From: Streptomyces sp. WMMC500
Lineage (GTDB): Bacteria > Actinomycetota > Actinomycetes > Streptomycetales > Streptomycetaceae
Direction: 5' to 3'
Length of the DNA: 64,000 bases
NCBI RefSeq assembly: GCF_027497195.1
Contig: NZ_CP114905.1
Coordinates: forward strand, 6,273,001 to 6,337,000
Positions 48,148-56,846 of the stretch are shown here, one piece after another. A program made the position numbers and the translations under genes. Under the pieces are notes generated by a model. That model saw only the letters and a program-made list of their open reading frames with translations, had not been told where the DNA came from and did no database searches. Position 1 is the stretch's first letter, and the number at the start of each line of letters is the position of its first letter.

Positions 48148-49158
48148 GTGACCTCGGGCGGTACGGACCGGCGTACCCGCTGGGCGCGCCTGGGCCACCT
48201 GTGGTGGCTGCTGGCGGCGGCGCTGATCACGGCGGGGCTGCTGGTGGCGATCTCGCGGCGCGGCGAACTGCGCCGGGCGCTCGACCTGCTGGCCCACGTC
48301 AGCCCGGCCAAAGCGCTGGTCGCGCTGGTGTGCCAGGCGGCCTGCCTGGCGTGCCTGGCCGGGTTGCAGCGGTGGCTGCTCGCGGTCGGCGGGGTGCGGC
48401 TGACGTGGCCCGCCATGAGCAAGCTGGTGCTGGCGGCGAACGCGGTGGCCGGTGCGCTGCCGGGCGGCGCGGCCTTCGCCACGGCCTGGCTCTTTCGCGA
48501 GTTCCGACGCCGGGGGGCCGACCGGGCGCTGACGGCGGGGGTCCTGGCGGCCTCGGGGGTGATGTCGGCGCTGGCGCTCGTGGTCGTGCTCCTGCTGGGG
48601 GTGCTCCTAGCCGGTACCCGCGGTCCCGGCATGCCGCTGCTGTGGCTCTTCGCGGCGCTGGCGCTGGCCGCCGTGGCGGGCCTGGTCGTACGGCGCTCAC
48701 CGGCCCTGCGGAAGGCGGTCCGCCGGCGCTGGGAGCGGACGGAGGCCCGGCACGAACACCTCCGTACGGCCCGCGAGGAGACGCGCCAACTGATCGCGCA
48801 CGCCCGCCGCGTCCGGCCCGGTGTCCGGCCCTGGTTGACGCCGGCCGCGCTGGCCCTGCTGAACTGGCTGCTCGACGCCGCCTGCCTGCTGGCCTGCCTC
48901 TGGGCGCTGGACGTCCCGGTGCCCTGGGGCGGCCTCCTGCTCGCCTTCGCACTGGTGCAGATCCCGGTCAGCGCGCGCATCACCCCGGGCGGTCTCGGCA
49001 TCGCCGAGGCCGGCATGACGGGCCTGCTGGTCGTCTACGGCCTGCAACCCGGCCAGGCGTTCGCGGCCACCCTGCTGTACCGGATCTTCAGCTACTGGCT
49101 GCCGCAGCCGGTCGGCTGGGCATGCTGGCTGGCGACGGGGCTGAAACGCGGGCGGTGA
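48148..49158 (+). CDS. lysylphosphatidylglycerol synthase TM region-like (flippase-like) membrane protein
   Basis: A 336-residue integral membrane protein of the UPF0104/LPG synthase transmembrane family, with about eight helices. Typical motifs are 'AANAVAGALPGGAAFATAWLFREFRRRGADRALTAGVLAASG' and 'VQIPVSARITPGGLGIAEAGMTGLLVVYGL' and 'ATLLYRIFSYWLPQPVGW'. It lacks the catalytic domain of MprF, so a lipid-flipping role is presumed. GTG 48148 is the best start in frame. It runs toward the convergent MpaB-like gene; two 10-bp repeats (CGGAGTGCCC) lie between. Confidence 0.88.
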   Translation: MTSGGTDRRTRWARLGHLWWLLAAALITAGLLVAISRRGELRRALDLLAHVSPAKALVALVCQAACLACLAGLQRWLLAVGGVRLTWPAMSKLVLAANAVAGALPGGAAFATAWLFREFRRRGADRALTAGVLAASGVMSALALVVVLLLGVLLAGTRGPGMPLLWLFAALALAAVAGLVVRRSPALRKAVRRRWERTEARHEHLRTAREETRQLIAHARRVRPGVRPWLTPAALALLNWLLDAACLLACLWALDVPVPWGGLLLAFALVQIPVSARITPGGLGIAEAGMTGLLVVYGLQPGQAFAATLLYRIFSYWLPQPVGWACWLATGLKRGR

Positions 49159-49199: not shown

Positions 49200-50663
49200 T
49201 CAGGCGTCGGCGAGGAGGGGGTCGTACGGGGTGCTCGTGCGGCGGCCCGCCATGAAGGAGAGGAAGTCGCCCACGAAGGCGCTCCGGCCGTAGGTGCCGT
49301 CGGTGGTGGTGAGGTCGAGGTGGAAGGCGGTGCGGAAGAGGGTTCGGTACTCGTTCGCGTCGATGCTCCCGTTGCCGTCCTTGTCGATGGCGTCGAAGAG
49401 GACCTCGGCCACGCGGATGAGCGCGGGTCCGGCGAGGGAGGGGACGGCGGCGGCGTACTCCTCGGCGCTGACGCGGCCGTCGCCGTCCGTGTCGAGGGCG
49501 GACTGGAGCTCGCGCCACCAGGCGGCGAAGGCGTCGTAGAGCCGGGCCTCCTCGGGTTCGTCCAGGTCGAGGCGGGTGGAGAGTTCGCGTGCCATGGCGG
49601 CGAGGTCGGGCCAGTCGAGGTGGCCGTCGCCGGTCTGGTCCAGCACCCGGCGGAAGAACTCCTCCGCCGAGCGCCGGTTGCCTTCCGTGGCCGCCGAAGG
49701 TGCCGTCTCGGGGCCGGTGGCGCCGCTCAGCGGTGTGAGGAGGCGGAGCAGGGCCGATGCCCGTGTGAGGCGGGCGCGCAGGGCGGACACGGCGCGGGCG
49801 CGGGGGTCGTCGCTGCCGGACGGGAGTGAGAGGGCTTCGACGATGCTGTCGGCGTTCAGCCAGCCCTCGGGCAGGAACCGGGTGAGCCCGGCGGCGAGGT
49901 AGGCGCCCTGCATGAGGGTGGGGGCGCCGGGCATCTCGGGCAGGCCGGCCCGGCGCCGGTAGGGCTCGGGGAGCGAGGCGACGGTGATCGCGCCGAGGAG
50001 CGGACCGGCGAGAGCGCGGCCGGCCGCCCACAGTGTCGGCGCGCCGTCGAGGAGCGCGGGGGCGGGCAGGTGGTCGAAGAGCCGGTAGAGGATGATCCGG
50101 GCGGCCTCGGTGTTCTCCAACTCGTTCTCGACGACCTGGTCGAAGTACGGCCAGAAGTCGCCCAGGTCCTCGGGGAGTTCCGCGGCGTCGCCGTCGAGCG
50201 CGGCGAGGAACGCGCGGTACTTGGCGTACATCCGCTCCATCGTGTCCTGGTCGAGCGGCTGGCCGCTCAGCCGGAACATGGTGACGGCGCTCTCGAAGAG
50301 GGTGGCGACGACCCAGGCGCGGGTGGCGCGGTCCCTCGCGTCGTAGGCGCGTCCGCGGTGGTCGGCGCCGCTCATGCGGGCGTGCAGCCGGTTGAGCCGG
50401 GCGGCCTCCCGTTCGCGCACCGCCGGGTCGGTGCCGAACATGCGCCGCATGCTGACGAACGTGTTGCGCAGTCGGCGCCAGGGGTGGGCGACGAAGACGG
50501 AGTTGTCGACGAGGGCGGCGCCGATCTGCGGGTGAGCGGCCTCCAGCACGGTGGCGCGGATGATGGCCAGGGCCCAGCGCGGGTCGTCGAAGAAGCCCTT
50601 GAACTGAGATTCCGAGTCGAACGGGGATGCGCCGTCGGCCGTTCCCGTGGTTTCGGTGGTCAT
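49200..50663 (-). CDS. MpaB-family (DUF2236) oxygenase fused to a C-terminal EF-hand domain
   Basis: A 487-residue fusion. Residues 1 to about 300 are a DUF2236/MpaB-type oxygenase-like domain ('ATVLEAAHPQIGAALVDNSVFVAHPWRRLRNTFVSM', 'DFWPYFDQVVENEL'). About 320-450 is a calerythrin-like calcium domain with three canonical loops: 'DQTGDGHLDWPDL', 'DTDGDGRVSAEEY', 'DKDGNGSIDANEY'. In the MpaB signature that usually reads W-V-H-A-T, this protein has 'AWVVATLFESA', so one expected heme-region His is absent. The ATG overlaps the prenyltransferase stop as ATGA, so they are co-translated. Calcium control of an oxygenase is an inference. Confidence 0.75.
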   Translation of the reverse strand: MTTETTGTADGASPFDSESQFKGFFDDPRWALAIIRATVLEAAHPQIGAALVDNSVFVAHPWRRLRNTFVSMRRMFGTDPAVREREAARLNRLHARMSGADHRGRAYDARDRATRAWVVATLFESAVTMFRLSGQPLDQDTMERMYAKYRAFLAALDGDAAELPEDLGDFWPYFDQVVENELENTEAARIILYRLFDHLPAPALLDGAPTLWAAGRALAGPLLGAITVASLPEPYRRRAGLPEMPGAPTLMQGAYLAAGLTRFLPEGWLNADSIVEALSLPSGSDDPRARAVSALRARLTRASALLRLLTPLSGATGPETAPSAATEGNRRSAEEFFRRVLDQTGDGHLDWPDLAAMARELSTRLDLDEPEEARLYDAFAAWWRELQSALDTDGDGRVSAEEYAAAVPSLAGPALIRVAEVLFDAIDKDGNGSIDANEYRTLFRTAFHLDLTTTDGTYGRSAFVGDFLSFMAGRRTSTPYDPLLADA

Positions 50664-51430
50664 GAGGGGTCTCCGTTCGTCCGGACGGGCACGCCGCCGA
50701 AGCGGCGGTCGCGGCGCCGATAGGTGTGCAGGCAGGCGAGGAGATCGGGAGCCCGGAAGTCCGGCCAGAGCACCTCGGGGAAGACCCACTCGGCGTAGGC
50801 GACCTGCCAGAGCATGAAGTTGGAGATGCGCTGCTCACCGGAGGTGCGGATGACGAGATCCACGTCGGGGGCGTCGGGGAAGGGCAGGTGGTCCGCGAAG
50901 AGCCGCTCGGTCACCTTCTCGGCGGGCGTCCCGCTGCGGATCAGCGACCTTGCGGCCTCGACGATGTCCCGGCGCCCGCCGTGGTCGAAGGCGACGGTCA
51001 GCGTCATCCCCCGGTTGCCGGCGGTGAGCGCCGCCAGGTCGTGGAAGTCCTGCGCCAGCTCGCGGGGAATGCGCGGGTCGGCGACCCCGAGGAAGCGGCA
51101 GCGGATGCCGCGCGCGAGCAGCAGCGGCGCATGCTTGCGCACCACCCTGCGCACCAGCCGCATCAGGAACTCGACCTCGGTGCCGGGGCGGTTCCAGTTC
51201 TCGGTGGAGAAGGCGTACAGGCTGAGCCACTCCACGCCGGTGGTCCTGGCCGCCTCGACGACGTCGATGACGGCGGTCACCGCGGCCCGGTGACCCGCCG
51301 TACGCGGAAGCGAACGCCGCTGCGCCCAGCGGCCGTTGCCATCCGTCACGCAGGCCACGTGCCGCGGCCCCGCACGCGCCGCCCCGTCCGGAGCGGCACG
51401 GCCGGCCGTACCGCGCTCGGTCACGCCCAC
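50660..51430 (-). CDS. cis-prenyltransferase (undecaprenyl diphosphate synthase-like)
   Basis: A 256-residue enzyme of the UppS family. The pyrophosphate site is 'VACVTDGNGRWAQRRSLPRTAGHRAAV', and 'WLSLYAFSTENWNRP', 'TVAFDHGGRRDIVEAA', 'DLVIRTSGEQRISNFMLWQVAYAEWVF' and 'RRRDRRFGGV' follow the family pattern. It condenses isopentenyl diphosphate onto an allylic diphosphate. Streptomyces carry a housekeeping copy near recO/era; this copy sits in an accessory set, so it may make a short or unusual prenyl chain. Start GTG 51430 or 51424; coupled to the MpaB-like gene. Confidence 0.88.
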   Translation of the reverse strand: MGVTERGTAGRAAPDGAARAGPRHVACVTDGNGRWAQRRSLPRTAGHRAAVTAVIDVVEAARTTGVEWLSLYAFSTENWNRPGTEVEFLMRLVRRVVRKHAPLLLARGIRCRFLGVADPRIPRELAQDFHDLAALTAGNRGMTLTVAFDHGGRRDIVEAARSLIRSGTPAEKVTERLFADHLPFPDAPDVDLVIRTSGEQRISNFMLWQVAYAEWVFPEVLWPDFRAPDLLACLHTYRRRDRRFGGVPVRTNGDPS

Positions 51431-51628
51431 CCCGCCTCGCCGCCCCCGCCTCGCTCACGCCCCACCGACGCGTTCTCACCTGGGAGTCTGACAGCGCGAA
51501 CGGGCCGTCCACGGCCGAACGAGTGGCCGTCACCCTCCATATGTGCGTGCGAATCCGTCCCGGTGCCGGGGCGGCGAACTCGCGCGCCGGTCCTTTCACA
51601 GCCCGGTCGGCTGAAGTGTCGGCTGAAG

Positions 51629-51658
51629 GGCGGGGCCGCTTCGGTGGGCGGCCCCGCC
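51629..51658 (-). terminator. hairpin terminator after the ABC transporter gene
   Basis: An 11-bp perfect stem (51629-51639 with 51648-51658) and 8-nt loop, 18 bp beyond the ABC gene stop. It suggests that the downstream prenyltransferase/MpaB pair has its own promoter in 51431-51628. Confidence 0.7.
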
Positions 51659-51675
51659 GAGGGCGGCGAGTCGGC

Positions 51676-53625
51676 TCAGCGGTCCCGGGCGAGCGCGTAC
51701 AGCTCGCGCAGGAGGCTTCCCTCCGTGGCGACCAAGGAGTCGAAGGTGCCCTCCTCGCGGATGCGTCCCTGGTCGAGGACGATGACGCGGTCGGCCATCC
51801 GCACGTTGTCCAGGCGGTGCGTGACCACCACGGTGATCCGGTCGGGGGCCATCTCGCGGAGCCGGCGGAAGACCAGGTGCTCGCCGCGGGCGTCCATCTC
51901 GCTGGTCGGCTCGTCCAGGACGAGTACGGCCGGCTCCCGGTACATCGCCCGCGCGCAGGCCAGACGCTGCCACTGCCCGCCGGACAGCTCGTGCCCGCCC
52001 CACACCGAGCGGGCCAGCAGGGTGTCGAGTCGGTCGGGGAGCGTGTGGAGCTTCTCGGCCATGCCGACGCGTTCCGCGGCGTCCCAGACGCGGTCGTCGG
52101 TGTGCTCGCGGGGCTGGCCGAGGGTGATGTTCTCCCGGGCGGCCAGCGGCCAGTGCCCGTTGTCCTGGGGGACGAGGCCGACGTGCCGCCAGACCGACTC
52201 CGCGTCGGCGGTGGCGAGATCGGTGCCGTCCCAGCAGACGGTCCCGCCGGTCGGCACCGTCAGTCCCGTGAGCATGCGGATCAGGGTGGACTTGCCGGCG
52301 CCGTTCTCGCCGACCAGGGCGACGACCTCACCGCGGTTCAGGGTGAGGGTGACCGGGTGCAGCGCGGGGGCGTCCTTGCCCGGGTAGGTGAACTCGGCCT
52401 CGCACAGGCGGATCTGCTGCGGCGCCCTTGCCCGGGTGGTGCCGCGGGCCGTGGCCATCGAGCGGACTTCGTCGACGAAGTCGTAGTAGTCGCCGAGGTA
52501 GAGCCCGTGGTGGAACATCACCGCCCCGTACCGGACGATCGAGTTCAGAGCCCGTCCCGCGGTCTGCGAGGCGACGACGGCGGTGCCGGCGATCGCGGTG
52601 GACATGGCTCCCGAGAGGGCGAGCGCGGCCAGCGCCGCCCACATGCCGAGCGTGAACACGCCCGCCAGGGAGGCCGCGAGAAGCGTCACGAGCAGGTACG
52701 GGCGCGCGCCCTGCAGTTCGCGGCCTTCGACCCGGTCGCACATCACCCGGTACCAGGAGTACAGGTAGGGGCGCATGGAGTTGGCGCGCAGCTCGTCGGC
52801 GAGATCGGGGGTGGTCAGCCACCAGCGCATCATGCCGCGCACGGTCCGGGCGGAGATGGTGCGGTCGTGGACGCGGTAGTCGATGCGCGCGGCGATCACG
52901 CCGCCCATGCCCCGGGGGATGACCGACAGCAGCAGCACGCCCAGGAGCAGGGGGTGGAGGGAGGTGAGGACGGTCGCGGCGGACACGAGCTGGACGAGGC
53001 CGTTGGTCAGGGTCTTGGCGTCGTCCGCGAGGTCGACCGCCCGGAGGGCGCCGATCTCCGCGGCCCGGCTGCGGTCGGTGAAGCCCTCGGTGTCGTAGGC
53101 GGACAGCTCGGCCTTCATGTGGAGGTCGACCAGGGTGAGATCGACCGCGGAGGCGATCTTCGGGTTCAGCCTTCGGGTGGCCCAGTCCGCGAGGATCCAC
53201 ATCCCGGCGCCCGCCGCCATCGCGACGACCGCGACGGTCAACGCGGGCCATGCCGCCGTCAGCCCGGTACGGGCGTCGGAGGTGGCGAGGTGGGGCATCG
53301 CCCGGGAGACCGCGGTGAGCATGACGGCGGTGCCGATGCCGGACAGCACCTGGCACACGAGGATCGTGAGGGTCATGCGGCGGTCGACGGACCAGGCCAG
53401 CCGGGCCGACTGGGCGAGCGCGGCCGGGATGCGGCGGGCCATGTCCCGCAGCGTCGCGTCGTCCATGGCCCGGCGGTGCTTGCGGCCGTGGTAGTCCAGC
53501 TCGGGGGGAGCCGAGGGCTGCGGACCCGCCGGTCGTGCCGCGGGAACGGCCGCCGTGTCCCGGGCCCCGGCGCCGGCCGTCGGCGCGACGCTGGACGCGC
53601 GCAGAGGGGACTTCCTGTCGCTCAT
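51676..53625 (-). CDS. ABC transporter, fused permease and ATPase (exporter type)
   Basis: A 649-residue half-transporter. An N-terminal Pro/Ala-rich 50 residues leads to a six-helix exporter bundle (about 75-370) and an ATPase. Walker A is 'ALVGENGAGKSTLIRML', signature 'HELSGGQWQRLACARAMYR', Walker B 'AVLVLDEPTSEMD', switch His in 'VVVTHRLDNVRMADR'. The membrane part resembles exporters seen in lanthipeptide and other peptide clusters, although no peptidase domain is present. Its ATG overlaps the stop of a 53-codon gene as ATGA, so that peptide is a plausible cargo. Confidence 0.85.
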   Translation of the reverse strand: MSDRKSPLRASSVAPTAGAGARDTAAVPAARPAGPQPSAPPELDYHGRKHRRAMDDATLRDMARRIPAALAQSARLAWSVDRRMTLTILVCQVLSGIGTAVMLTAVSRAMPHLATSDARTGLTAAWPALTVAVVAMAAGAGMWILADWATRRLNPKIASAVDLTLVDLHMKAELSAYDTEGFTDRSRAAEIGALRAVDLADDAKTLTNGLVQLVSAATVLTSLHPLLLGVLLLSVIPRGMGGVIAARIDYRVHDRTISARTVRGMMRWWLTTPDLADELRANSMRPYLYSWYRVMCDRVEGRELQGARPYLLVTLLAASLAGVFTLGMWAALAALALSGAMSTAIAGTAVVASQTAGRALNSIVRYGAVMFHHGLYLGDYYDFVDEVRSMATARGTTRARAPQQIRLCEAEFTYPGKDAPALHPVTLTLNRGEVVALVGENGAGKSTLIRMLTGLTVPTGGTVCWDGTDLATADAESVWRHVGLVPQDNGHWPLAARENITLGQPREHTDDRVWDAAERVGMAEKLHTLPDRLDTLLARSVWGGHELSGGQWQRLACARAMYREPAVLVLDEPTSEMDARGEHLVFRRLREMAPDRITVVVTHRLDNVRMADRVIVLDQGRIREEGTFDSLVATEGSLLRELYALARDR

Positions 53626-53783
53626 GCCCCCCACCTCGGTGACGGTCGTGATGCCGATGCGAACGGAGCGCGGCGCGCGGCGGCCGGACGCTGGAGAACC
53701 GCGGGCTTGGCGGGCCGGGAGGGCTGGGCGGGAGGATTCTCGAAGGCGGGGTGGGCGGCGGGAAGGGGACGTACGGGATTCAC
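53622..53783 (-). CDS. 53-residue Pro/Ala-rich peptide, possible precursor
   Basis: A short frame starting at GTG 53783 with an excellent Shine-Dalgarno (GAGGAG, 6-7 bases before) and ending in ATGA overlap with the ABC exporter. The peptide starts 'MNPVRPLPAAHPAFENPP' and ends 'ASASRPSPRWGA'. It has 13 Pro, one Trp and no Cys, so lanthionine or disulfide chemistry is ruled out. GC at third positions is about 71 percent, lower than neighbours but common for short peptide genes. The product could be an exported peptide, a RiPP precursor with leader at 'PLPAAHPAFENPP', or only a translational-coupling leader. I do not recognise the family. Confidence 0.5.
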   Translation of the reverse strand: MNPVRPLPAAHPAFENPPAQPSRPAKPAVLQRPAAARRAPFASASRPSPRWGA

Positions 53784-54633: not shown

Positions 54634-54640
54634 AGCCCTG

Positions 54641-54713
54641 CGCCCCCGGCAGGACTCGAACCTGCGACCAAGCGCTTAGAAGGCGCCTGCTCTATCCGCT
54701 GAGCTACGGGGGC
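54641..54713 (-). tRNA. tRNA-Arg (anticodon TCT)
   Basis: A 73-nt cloverleaf. The acceptor GCCCCCG pairs with CGGGGGC plus discriminator G. The D arm is TAGCTCAGCGGATAGAGCA, the anticodon stem GCGC/GCGC has loop CTTCTAA (anticodon TCT, reading AGA/AGG), and the T arm is GCAGGTTCGAGTCCTGC. CCA is not encoded. AGA is very rare in this genome. tRNA 3' ends are frequent integration sites, and the gene-poor accessory stretch begins right at this 3' end, but no integrase is present. Confidence 0.96.
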
Positions 54714-54777
54714 CGGTGTGGCGTGGAACGGTGGCCGGGCTCGGCGGATCCGTGACCTTGCCAGTGGACAAGGATAG

Positions 54778-54884
54778 GGCTCCGTTGAGCCACACCCGGT
54801 AGCTTCACTCCGGCACCACCTTGTGGAGGTTCAGTGAAGCCTCCCGATAATCGCAGGCGAGTGCGATTCGCGCATCGCTTTTTT
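54778..54884 (+). ncRNA. candidate small RNA with three hairpins and a U6 terminator
   Basis: Three consecutive stems are visible on the plus strand. GGCTC-CGTT-GAGCC is at 54778-54791. GCTTCACT/AGTGAAGC is at 54802-54809 and 54833-54840, enclosing CCAC-CTT-GTGG. GCGAT-N6-ATCGC is at 54863-54878, directly followed by six T residues (54879-54884). No protein is encoded. T-tract terminators are rare in this genome. The minus strand of the same DNA may carry the tRNA promoter. No known RNA family is recognised. Confidence 0.4.
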
Positions 54885-55007
54885 CCGCGTGGCGCCGGTG
54901 GTGTTGTGCAGTCGTTATGCCCGCGTGGCGGGAGCTTCTGGGTTGAAGAACGCGCGCTGCGGGGCTAAACGCTTTCAAATTCGGATGGAAGCGGGCATTC
55001 TTCGCAT

Positions 55008-56846
55008 GTGGCGACCTCGGACGTACGGCCTGACCTGCTGAACGCACTCTCCGCCCTCCGCGAGTGCGTCGCCGCCGCGCGCTTTCCGCTCCCCCTGCCC
55101 GGGGCGGACGGAGCGCGGCGGAGCAGGGCGGAACTGCTGGCCCAGCTCGACGACTACCTGGTGCCCCGGCTGGACCGGCCGGACGCGCCGCTGCTCGCGG
55201 TGGTCGGCGGATCGACGGGGGCGGGGAAGTCCACGCTGGTCAACTCGCTCGTCGGCAGATGCGTCAGCGAGTCCGGCGTGTTGCGGCCCACGACCCGCAT
55301 GCCCGTGCTCGTCTGCCACCCCGACGACCAGTCCTGGTTCGCCGGGCAGCGGGTCCTGCCGCGGCTGACGCGGGTGTGGATGCCGCGCCAGGACGGCGCG
55401 CACGGGCGTGTCGAGGCGTATGAGTCGTACGGCGCGTACGAGGCCCAGGAGATCGCGGAGCCGTACGGGGACGGCGGTCTGTCCGGTGCGGCGTACGGGG
55501 CGAGCAGGGGTGCCTCCGGGGCGTACGGCGTGCGTGATCCGTACGGCACCCGGGACGGCCTGGCGCCGGACGGACTGATGCCGGACGGTCCGGTGCGCGG
55601 TGGTCCGGCGCGACGCGGTCCGGTGCGGGGGCCCGCGACCTTCGGCGAGGGCGGTGGCGGGCCCGACGGGACCCTGCTGCGGATCGAGGTCGACGAGAAC
55701 ATGCCGAGCGGCCTCGCCCTCCTCGACGCCCCCGACATCGACTCCCTCGCCGGGCACGCCCGCGAGCTGGCCGCCGAGCTGGTGTGCGCCGCGGACGTGT
55801 GGGTGCTGGTGACGACCGCCTCGCGGTACGCCGACGCGGTGCCCTGGCACCTGCTGCGTACGGCGAAGGAGTACGACGTCAGCCTGGTCACCGTGCTCGA
55901 CCGCGTGCCGCACCAGGTCGCCGGCGAGATCTCCCTGCAGTACGCGACGCTGCTGCGCAGGGCCGGGCTCGGCGACGTGCCGCGCTTCACCGTCCCCGAA
56001 CTCCCCGAGTCCGCCGGCGGCGGCAGCGGGCTGCTGCCCGCCACGGCGGTGCAGCAGTTGCGCGACTGGCTCGCCCACCGCGCCCGGGACCCGCGGGCCC
56101 GCGCGGACGCGGCCGTGCGGACCGCGAACGGCGTGCTCGCGTCGCTGCGTTCCCGGGTCACGTCGCTGGCCGGGGCGTGCGCCGCGCAGCACGCGGCGGC
56201 GACGCGGATGACGCACCGCGTGGAGCGGGCGTACGAGGAGGCCGCGGAGCAGGCGCACGCCGACCTCGTCGGGGGCACCGCGTTCGGCGGCGACGCCCTC
56301 GCGCACTACCGCAACCGTGCCCTCACCGGCACCTCCGCCGCCCTCCTCGACGCCCTGACCGGCAGCGTCGCCGCCGTCCTGTACTGCGCCGTGGCCGCCG
56401 CCGACGAACGGTTCGCCGCCGAGCTGCGCCGCGAGCCGGCCGCGGCGGCGGTGCCCTTCGGCGAGGCGGGCGCGGGGGCGCAGGAGCGGGTGGGCGTGCT
56501 CGTACGGCGCTGGCAGCGCTGCCTGGAGGAACTGGCCGACGAGGCGTTGCGGGCGGCGGAGCCGCCGGCGGACGCGGAGCCGGAGGAGGTCGCTGCGCTG
56601 CTGGCGGTGGCGCTGCTCGGCGGCGCGAACGGGCAGGGCGCGGCGGACGAACTGGCCGCGCTGCTGGGCGCGAAGGGCGGGTTGCGGCTGCGGAGCCGGG
56701 GCGGGCGGCTGCTCGGCACGTACTTCGACCGGGTGCTCGACGGAGAGCGGGATCGCCGGCTGGCGGCGGTCGAAGCCCTGGAGGCGCAGTCGGGTCAGCA
56801 GGCTCAGTTGATCGCGGCCATGTCAGTGCTGCAGCGGGAGAAGTGA
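55008..56846 (+). CDS. dynamin-like GTPase, probable DynA
   Basis: A 612-residue GTPase. The P-loop '[22 protein letters not shown]' is at about residues 62-83, switch region '[15 protein letters not shown]', G3 '[13 protein letters not shown]', and G4-like '[14 protein letters not shown]'. Between G2 and G3 lies an insert rich in Tyr-Gly repeats (about 135-225: '[11 protein letters not shown]', '[15 protein letters not shown]'). No membrane helix is evident. In Streptomyces two such genes in tandem encode DynA and DynB, which stabilise FtsZ rings during sporulation septation; the tandem arrangement fits. The next gene overlaps by GTGA. Confidence 0.78.

Follow-up and report, generated by a model that had tools for sequence, protein, structure and literature searches.

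A conserved cis-prenyltransferase and EF-hand oxygenase gene pair in Streptomyces, lying beside an unrelated peptide-exporter unit

Four genes at positions 49200 to 53783 of a 64,000-nucleotide stretch (the window) of the Streptomyces sp. WMMC500 genome (one contig, 8.6 Mb) were read in an initial annotation as a single pathway, in which a small peptide would be prenylated, oxidized, and exported. All four reading frames and their coordinates proved correct, as did the two ATGA overlaps. The single pathway did not stand: the genes are two unrelated two-gene units lying side by side, i.e., two independent modules adjacent within a variable chromosomal site. One of them, composed of a cis-prenyltransferase (CPT) and an MpaB/Lcp-family oxygenase, is a tightly conserved two-gene unit in Streptomyces. 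Its features are the following:

50660..51430, minus strand: CPT, 256 amino acids (PF01255); its TGA overlaps the ATG of the oxygenase gene (ATGA)
49200..50663, minus strand: MpaB/Lcp-family oxygenase with C-terminal EF-hands, 487 amino acids (PF09995 plus EF-hand; fold match to 8s1j and 5o1l)
49236..49682, minus strand: CabD-like EF-hand domain of the oxygenase, residues 328-476; canonical loops from residues 342, 391, and 427

The coupling of a CPT to an MpaB-type oxygenase carrying three EF-hands had been correctly described; a degenerate fourth loop is also present. The pair was followed in 246 Streptomyces genomes (the genome set, from which 60 loci were taken for neighborhood reading) and in the best 80 of 277 relatives found (the locus set). 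These sets overlap, some contigs being identical (e.g., L159 and G159), and are not independent. Matches to the oxygenase (E ≤ 1e-30) were detected in 61 of the 246 genomes, including 50 with close orthologs (67-100% identity over the matched part) and 11 with a distant form (35-39% identity). Of the close orthologs, those of G075 and G179 are partial and that of G082 is in two pieces, scored as a single place; additional partial copies in G177 and G202 do not enter the counts. The pair-type CPT was found in 48/246 genomes (the G070 copy has an internal stop), and in 48/48 of these the oxygenase gene is its same-strand neighbor, at a distance of 0 to 153 bp. The Fisher test of this co-occurrence takes no account of relatedness. 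Only G075 and G179, in which the oxygenase is partial, have a close oxygenase without the CPT. The two genes are likewise adjacent in 80/80 members of the locus set, with a spacing of 0-216 bp. CPT and oxygenase distances co-vary (Mantel r 0.85, 0/2000 permutations, 78 of the 80 loci; species relatedness uncorrected), and the pN/pS ranges were 0.18-0.35 (CPT) and 0.28-0.53 (oxygenase). A diverged pair (L094; CPT 48-49% and oxygenase 38-40% identical) is still adjacent.

No exporter recurs beside the pair among the loci examined. Open reading frame (ORF) clusters at the 60 loci corresponded to the CPT (40 loci), the oxygenase (36), a short ORF lying antisense inside the oxygenase gene (10), and the oxygenase of the distant type (8), and no further cluster occurred in more than 5/60 loci; neighboring genes here, at the peptide loci, and at the tRNA flank were called with a simple GC3-filter ORF finder, which misses genes. 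A convergent LPG_synthase_TM gene (48148-49158) was considered as a partner and rejected, being unmatched at all 60 loci. The window's exporter was likewise rejected as a carrier of the pair's product, since no exporter recurs. A search of 396 genomes of the phylum gave full-length oxygenase matches confined to Streptomyces; three matches from other genera covered the catalytic part only, and no CPT match was present within their 1.5 kb flanks. Outside Streptomyces, two members of the locus collection (L168 and L223) belong to Actinacidiphila and one relative protein is labeled Kitasatospora. As a side observation, record L201 (JOFO01000020.1), named Microtetraspora glauca NRRL B-3735, compared with G076:C20, placed in Streptomyces, is possibly a mislabeled strain. 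Among the matches listed in the open full-text literature, subscription papers excluded, no paper described a CPT-MpaB pair or an EF-hand-bearing MpaB enzyme. The suggestion of an undescribed gene set is thus retained for the pair, which is a smaller, real unit without a published description found; the four genes are no set.

The remaining features of the locus are:

51676..53625, minus strand: ABC exporter (permease plus ATPase), part of the separate peptide unit (PF00005; orthologs 3' of the peptide in seven other genomes)
53622..53783, minus strand: 53-residue peptide gene, coupled to the exporter; its ends (MNPVR... and ...SRPSxxWGA) are conserved
51629..51658, minus strand: 11-bp G+C-rich hairpin 3' of the exporter stop (RNA fold)
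54640..54713, minus strand: tRNA-Arg(tct), all four genes lying on its 3' side

A single pathway that prenylates, oxidizes, and exports the peptide is very improbable. It has in its favor that all genes lie on the same strand within 4.6 kb with two ATGA couplings, and that the peptide Trp is invariant in close relatives. However, where 2.4 kb or more of sequence 5' of the CPT was available (69/80 pair loci in the locus set; 45/48 CPT-bearing loci in the 60 from the genome set), the exporter or peptide was found upstream in 0/69 and 0/45; the longest exporter match there (274 residues, 35% identity) represents likeness of the ATPase domain. Conversely, the CPT or oxygenase was found in 0/20 other peptide loci, about 9-18 kb of each being read; these 20 include L269 (G735), which is seemingly spurious, and L267, whose frame ends unlike the others. 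A 47-residue CPT-like match in L112 (E 8e-4, 6.7 kb away) was taken as chance. In one genome (G047), both units are present with 6.4 Mb between them, and the pair is not enriched in peptide-bearing genomes (2/8 vs. 48/246, P 0.48). The enzymes occur apart from the peptide and exporter in relatives, an outcome that the initial annotation had named beforehand as contradicting its proposal; the comparison with prenylated-Trp peptides such as ComX falls for the same reason, the peptide being unlinked to the CPT. Within the window, the units are separated by 245 bp holding the hairpin (z -2.5; 4/200 shuffles equally stable upon RNA folding). The hairpin lacks a T tract and was seen by folding alone, a terminator scan having found none; it may represent the end of the peptide/exporter transcript.

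The CPT (PF01255, E 4.9e-73) has intact motifs: in the best 80 of 277 relatives, DGNGRW is kept in 78/80 (two unaligned), STENW in 80/80, and RTSGEQRISN in 79/80. The closest solved structures are 7cpn/7cpm and the decaprenyl diphosphate synthase 2vg2. Four other CPT-family genes were identified in the source genome, two of which (L001 and L003) are 46 and 37% identical to the pair CPT; the paralog at 46% is UppS-like. The other two (L004 and L005) are low-scoring, at 105 bits each, and far from UppS, L005 having DGMRRW in place of the ordinary DGNGRW.

The catalytic domain of the oxygenase was assigned to PF09995, MPAB_Lcp_cat (E 2.5e-44, 152.5 bits vs. a cut-off of 23). The predicted fold resembles t-anethole oxygenase (8s1j) and latex clearing protein (Lcp; 5o1l), both of which cleave alkenes, together with a CabD-like calcium-binding domain; Foldseek placed EF-hand proteins first and 8s1j 19th, and VIA-align placed 8s1j first. 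When the catalytic domain was used in a sequence-profile search of the PDB, no relative emerged, so kinship with Lcp and t-anethole oxygenase rests on Pfam and fold. Residues R64, N67, T68, and H94 are kept in 80/80 orthologs, and R64 and H94 also in 44/44 in a separate comparison; position 53 is D in 70, E in 8, and A in 2. By comparison with Lcp/Nro1, D53, R64, N67, T68, and H94 are candidate heme-site residues, and R64 and H94 would be equivalent to R164 and H198, as judged from spacing and fold. The strict Lcp feature Lys167 is replaced by Asn67 in 80/80; according to excerpts of PMC5522427, Lys167 is conserved in only 59% of Lcps. Acidic EF-hand loop residues at 342, 353, 391, 395, 402, 427, and 438 are present in 80/80, and D or N occupies 346, 393, and 429. 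No hydrophobic or twin-Arg segment was seen at the N-terminus by eye, and on the same judgment the enzyme is apparently cytoplasmic. A second type of MpaB oxygenase with EF-hands, about 33% identical and without a CPT, was observed at L086-L093 and L095; its fourth EF-hand loop is intact in the three that were aligned (L086, L088, and L095).

We propose, with moderate confidence, that the CPT makes a cis-polyprenyl chain and that the oxygenase, acting inside the cell as a calcium-responsive dioxygenase, splits a C=C bond of that chain. The gene pairing, co-divergence, conserved candidate heme-site and calcium-loop residues, and fold are observed; the chemistry and the biological role are predicted. 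Judging from its family and its intact UppS-like motifs, the CPT would join isopentenyl diphosphate to an allylic primer, giving a cis-polyprenyl diphosphate. The co-translated, apparently cytoplasmic and putative b-heme dioxygenase would then cut a C=C bond of this chain or of a derived alcohol or conjugate, as its family and fold suggest, and the products would be a shorter aldehyde/ketone or acid. The CabD-like domain would render cleavage calcium-responsive. Such a synthesize-then-cut route to a shortened polyprenoid would follow a logic akin to carotenoid cleavage. More tentatively, the unit could be a calcium-gated intracellular pathway in which a rubber-oxygenase-type dioxygenase, supplied by a dedicated cis-polyprenyl synthase, cleaves the chain to a defined apo-polyprenoid signal or building block. 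We know of no earlier bacterial use of this oxygenase family in biosynthesis as opposed to degradation. If the proposal is true, the pair would define an unrecognized class of Streptomyces isoprenoid derived from a cut cis-polyprene and possibly controlled by calcium, would supply a native substrate for part of the MpaB/DUF2236 family, and, as two genes suffice, could be easily rebuilt in a laboratory host.

Three other functions of the pair were weighed. It is unlikely, though worth serious consideration, that the pair tunes or turns over the carrier lipid pool, the CPT adding polyprenyl phosphate and the oxygenase, in response to calcium signals, removing any surplus, without a secreted product. 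The resemblance of the CPT to undecaprenyl/decaprenyl synthases, the lack of any exporter or tailoring gene recurring beside the pair, and the cytoplasmic appearance of both proteins by eye would agree with such a role; however, the other CPT-family genes, with the UppS-like paralog among them, probably fill it already, and the pair is patchy (48/246 genomes). Somewhat less likely still, the CPT could prenylate a non-isoprenoid acceptor and the oxygenase trim the chain as fungal MpaB trims farnesyl. There are precedents for both steps, in the O- and C-prenylating CPT from Methanosarcina (excerpts of PMC8131916) and in MpaB (excerpts of PMC12724181), but no acceptor-making gene recurs nearby, and the CPT has the full set of UppS motifs seen in CPTs that elongate chains. 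That the pairing reflects co-regulation or co-transfer alone, with the oxygenase acting on an unrelated alkene, is improbable: the CPT is indeed absent in 9/10 loci of the distant oxygenase with EF-hands (L094 excepted), yet the pairing is 48/48 where the CPT occurs, the two proteins co-diverge, and the diverged pair remains adjacent.

The other two genes of the locus belong to a separate unit, peptide-(APH-type kinase)-exporter, from which the kinase is missing here. The 53-codon peptide gene starts with GTG at 53783, six bases downstream of GAGGAG, and its stop overlaps the ATG of the exporter (ABC ATPase domain PF00005, E 5e-35), as annotated. It is a genuine gene under moderate constraint: dN/dS was 0.22-0.77 with a median of 0.46 in 21 pairs (NG86, rough in DNA so GC-rich), and the frame is conserved in other Streptomyces. 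Matches were found in 10/246 genomes with the single sequence (E ≤ 1e-3) and in 20/392 with an alignment, the window's genome counting in both. Matches in G108 and G226 (loci L113 and L114) were dropped as spurious, the CPT and oxygenase being absent there too, and tblastn hits scoring about 28-40 bits, which occur in many loci, were treated as Pro/Ala-rich chance matches and not counted. In a word-based search, 12 homologs were found among 5.8 billion proteins, five of the 12 being labeled Streptomyces. In the seven other genomes first read, the peptide is full length, keeps the start M-N/S-P-V/M, and is followed by ATGA with an exporter downstream; the end SRPSxxWGA is present in 5/7 and varied in 2/7. 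Identity of these exporters to that of the window is 78-89% in six genomes and 47% in the seventh. In 4/7, the peptide and exporter genes flank a gene for an APH-family phosphotransferase (293-296 residues; assigned to PF01636 in all three cases tested); in one genome this gene is truncated. Across the 20 other peptide loci, a full-length APH-type kinase comes next in nine and a related ABC exporter (34-89% identical) is near in 15; a NUDIX or MFS gene, identified by eye, is also present in some. No APH-type kinase of that kind was detected in the source genome at E 1e-50; it is present in 7/121 genomes of the family. This absence, together with the likeness of the exporter start MSDRK to MSDAK, the start of the frame that follows the peptide in L106 and L107, suggests that peptide and exporter became fused through a deletion in this genome.

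The Trp near the peptide C-terminus, to which attention had been drawn, is invariant in the close set (8/8 and 12/12 in two alignments) and missing in the weaker relatives L266, L268, and L126. It need not mark a modification site, because the codons for WGA (TGG-GGG-GCA-TGA) also give a G-rich sequence right before the start of the next gene. With its moderate dN/dS and this context, the peptide may be either a secreted product or a translational leader. An operon family in which a peptide of about 50 residues is ATGA-coupled to an APH-family phosphotransferase was observed at L109:8749-11722, L110, L111, L112, L257, L258, L262, L263, and L265; these peptides start with M-x-P-V and mostly end in SRPxxxWGA, an ABC or MFS exporter comes next in most, and a NUDIX gene is sometimes present. 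This family could be an undescribed unit, either RiPP-like (ribosomally synthesized and post-translationally modified peptide) or controlled by a leader peptide; a literature search for a system of peptide, phosphotransferase, NUDIX, and exporter gave a single paper, which was unrelated. At L126:5303-7753, another short peptide (MYPVPAPVRVVGGHPAFE...) is ATGA-coupled to a NUDIX-like gene (named by eye), after which lies an exporter 73% identical to the window's, i.e., the same plan with another enzyme.

Both units lie on the 3' side of tRNA-Arg(tct), which looks like a variable site. The gene across the tRNA (55008-56846), apparently GTPase-like as judged from its P-loop, was found in 8/12 other genomes. 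Six of these eight were examined (L279-L284); the same tRNA stands beside it in 6/6, and the genes 3' of the tRNA differ, with one common to 2/6 genomes and none shared with the window. The region (window 54640-56846 and L279-L284) is a likely insertion hot spot. The case is a warning that gene neighborhoods next to tRNA genes can point to nonexistent pathways.

Several described systems share parts of the CPT-oxygenase pair. Lcp works extracellularly on rubber (excerpts of PMC5522427). From LcpK30 the oxygenase described here differs in the Asn replacing Lys167, the EF-hands, the CPT partner, and the lack of an export signal by eye. t-Anethole oxygenase and the bacterial MpaB-type alkene-cleaving heme oxygenases are 10% identical to it; 8s1j, at about 300 residues, is too short to include an EF-hand domain as well, and we know of no CPT partner for this type. 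Among the matches listed in literature searches for t-anethole oxygenase, none was a structure paper. Fungal MpaB of mycophenolic acid biosynthesis, which belongs to the same Pfam family by name, oxidatively cleaves a prenyl C=C bond during biosynthesis (excerpts of PMC12724181). Its substrate is a farnesylated phthalide, and it is bound to the endoplasmic reticulum according to the Pfam description. To our knowledge, neither a CPT nor an EF-hand is associated with it. The calcium-binding protein of Streptomyces coelicolor (3aka/3akb), which we take to be CabD, is stand-alone, whereas here a similar domain is fused to the oxygenase and its fourth loop is degenerate. Undecaprenyl and decaprenyl diphosphate synthases have the intact motifs in common with the pair CPT, which differs in being an extra, patchily distributed paralog tied to an oxygenase. 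In the ComQX system, ComX is prenylated by ComQ, which has a trans-prenyltransferase rather than a CPT fold; the small peptide with a Trp near its C-terminus is a point of likeness, but the CPT has a different fold and, in relatives, is not linked to the peptide.
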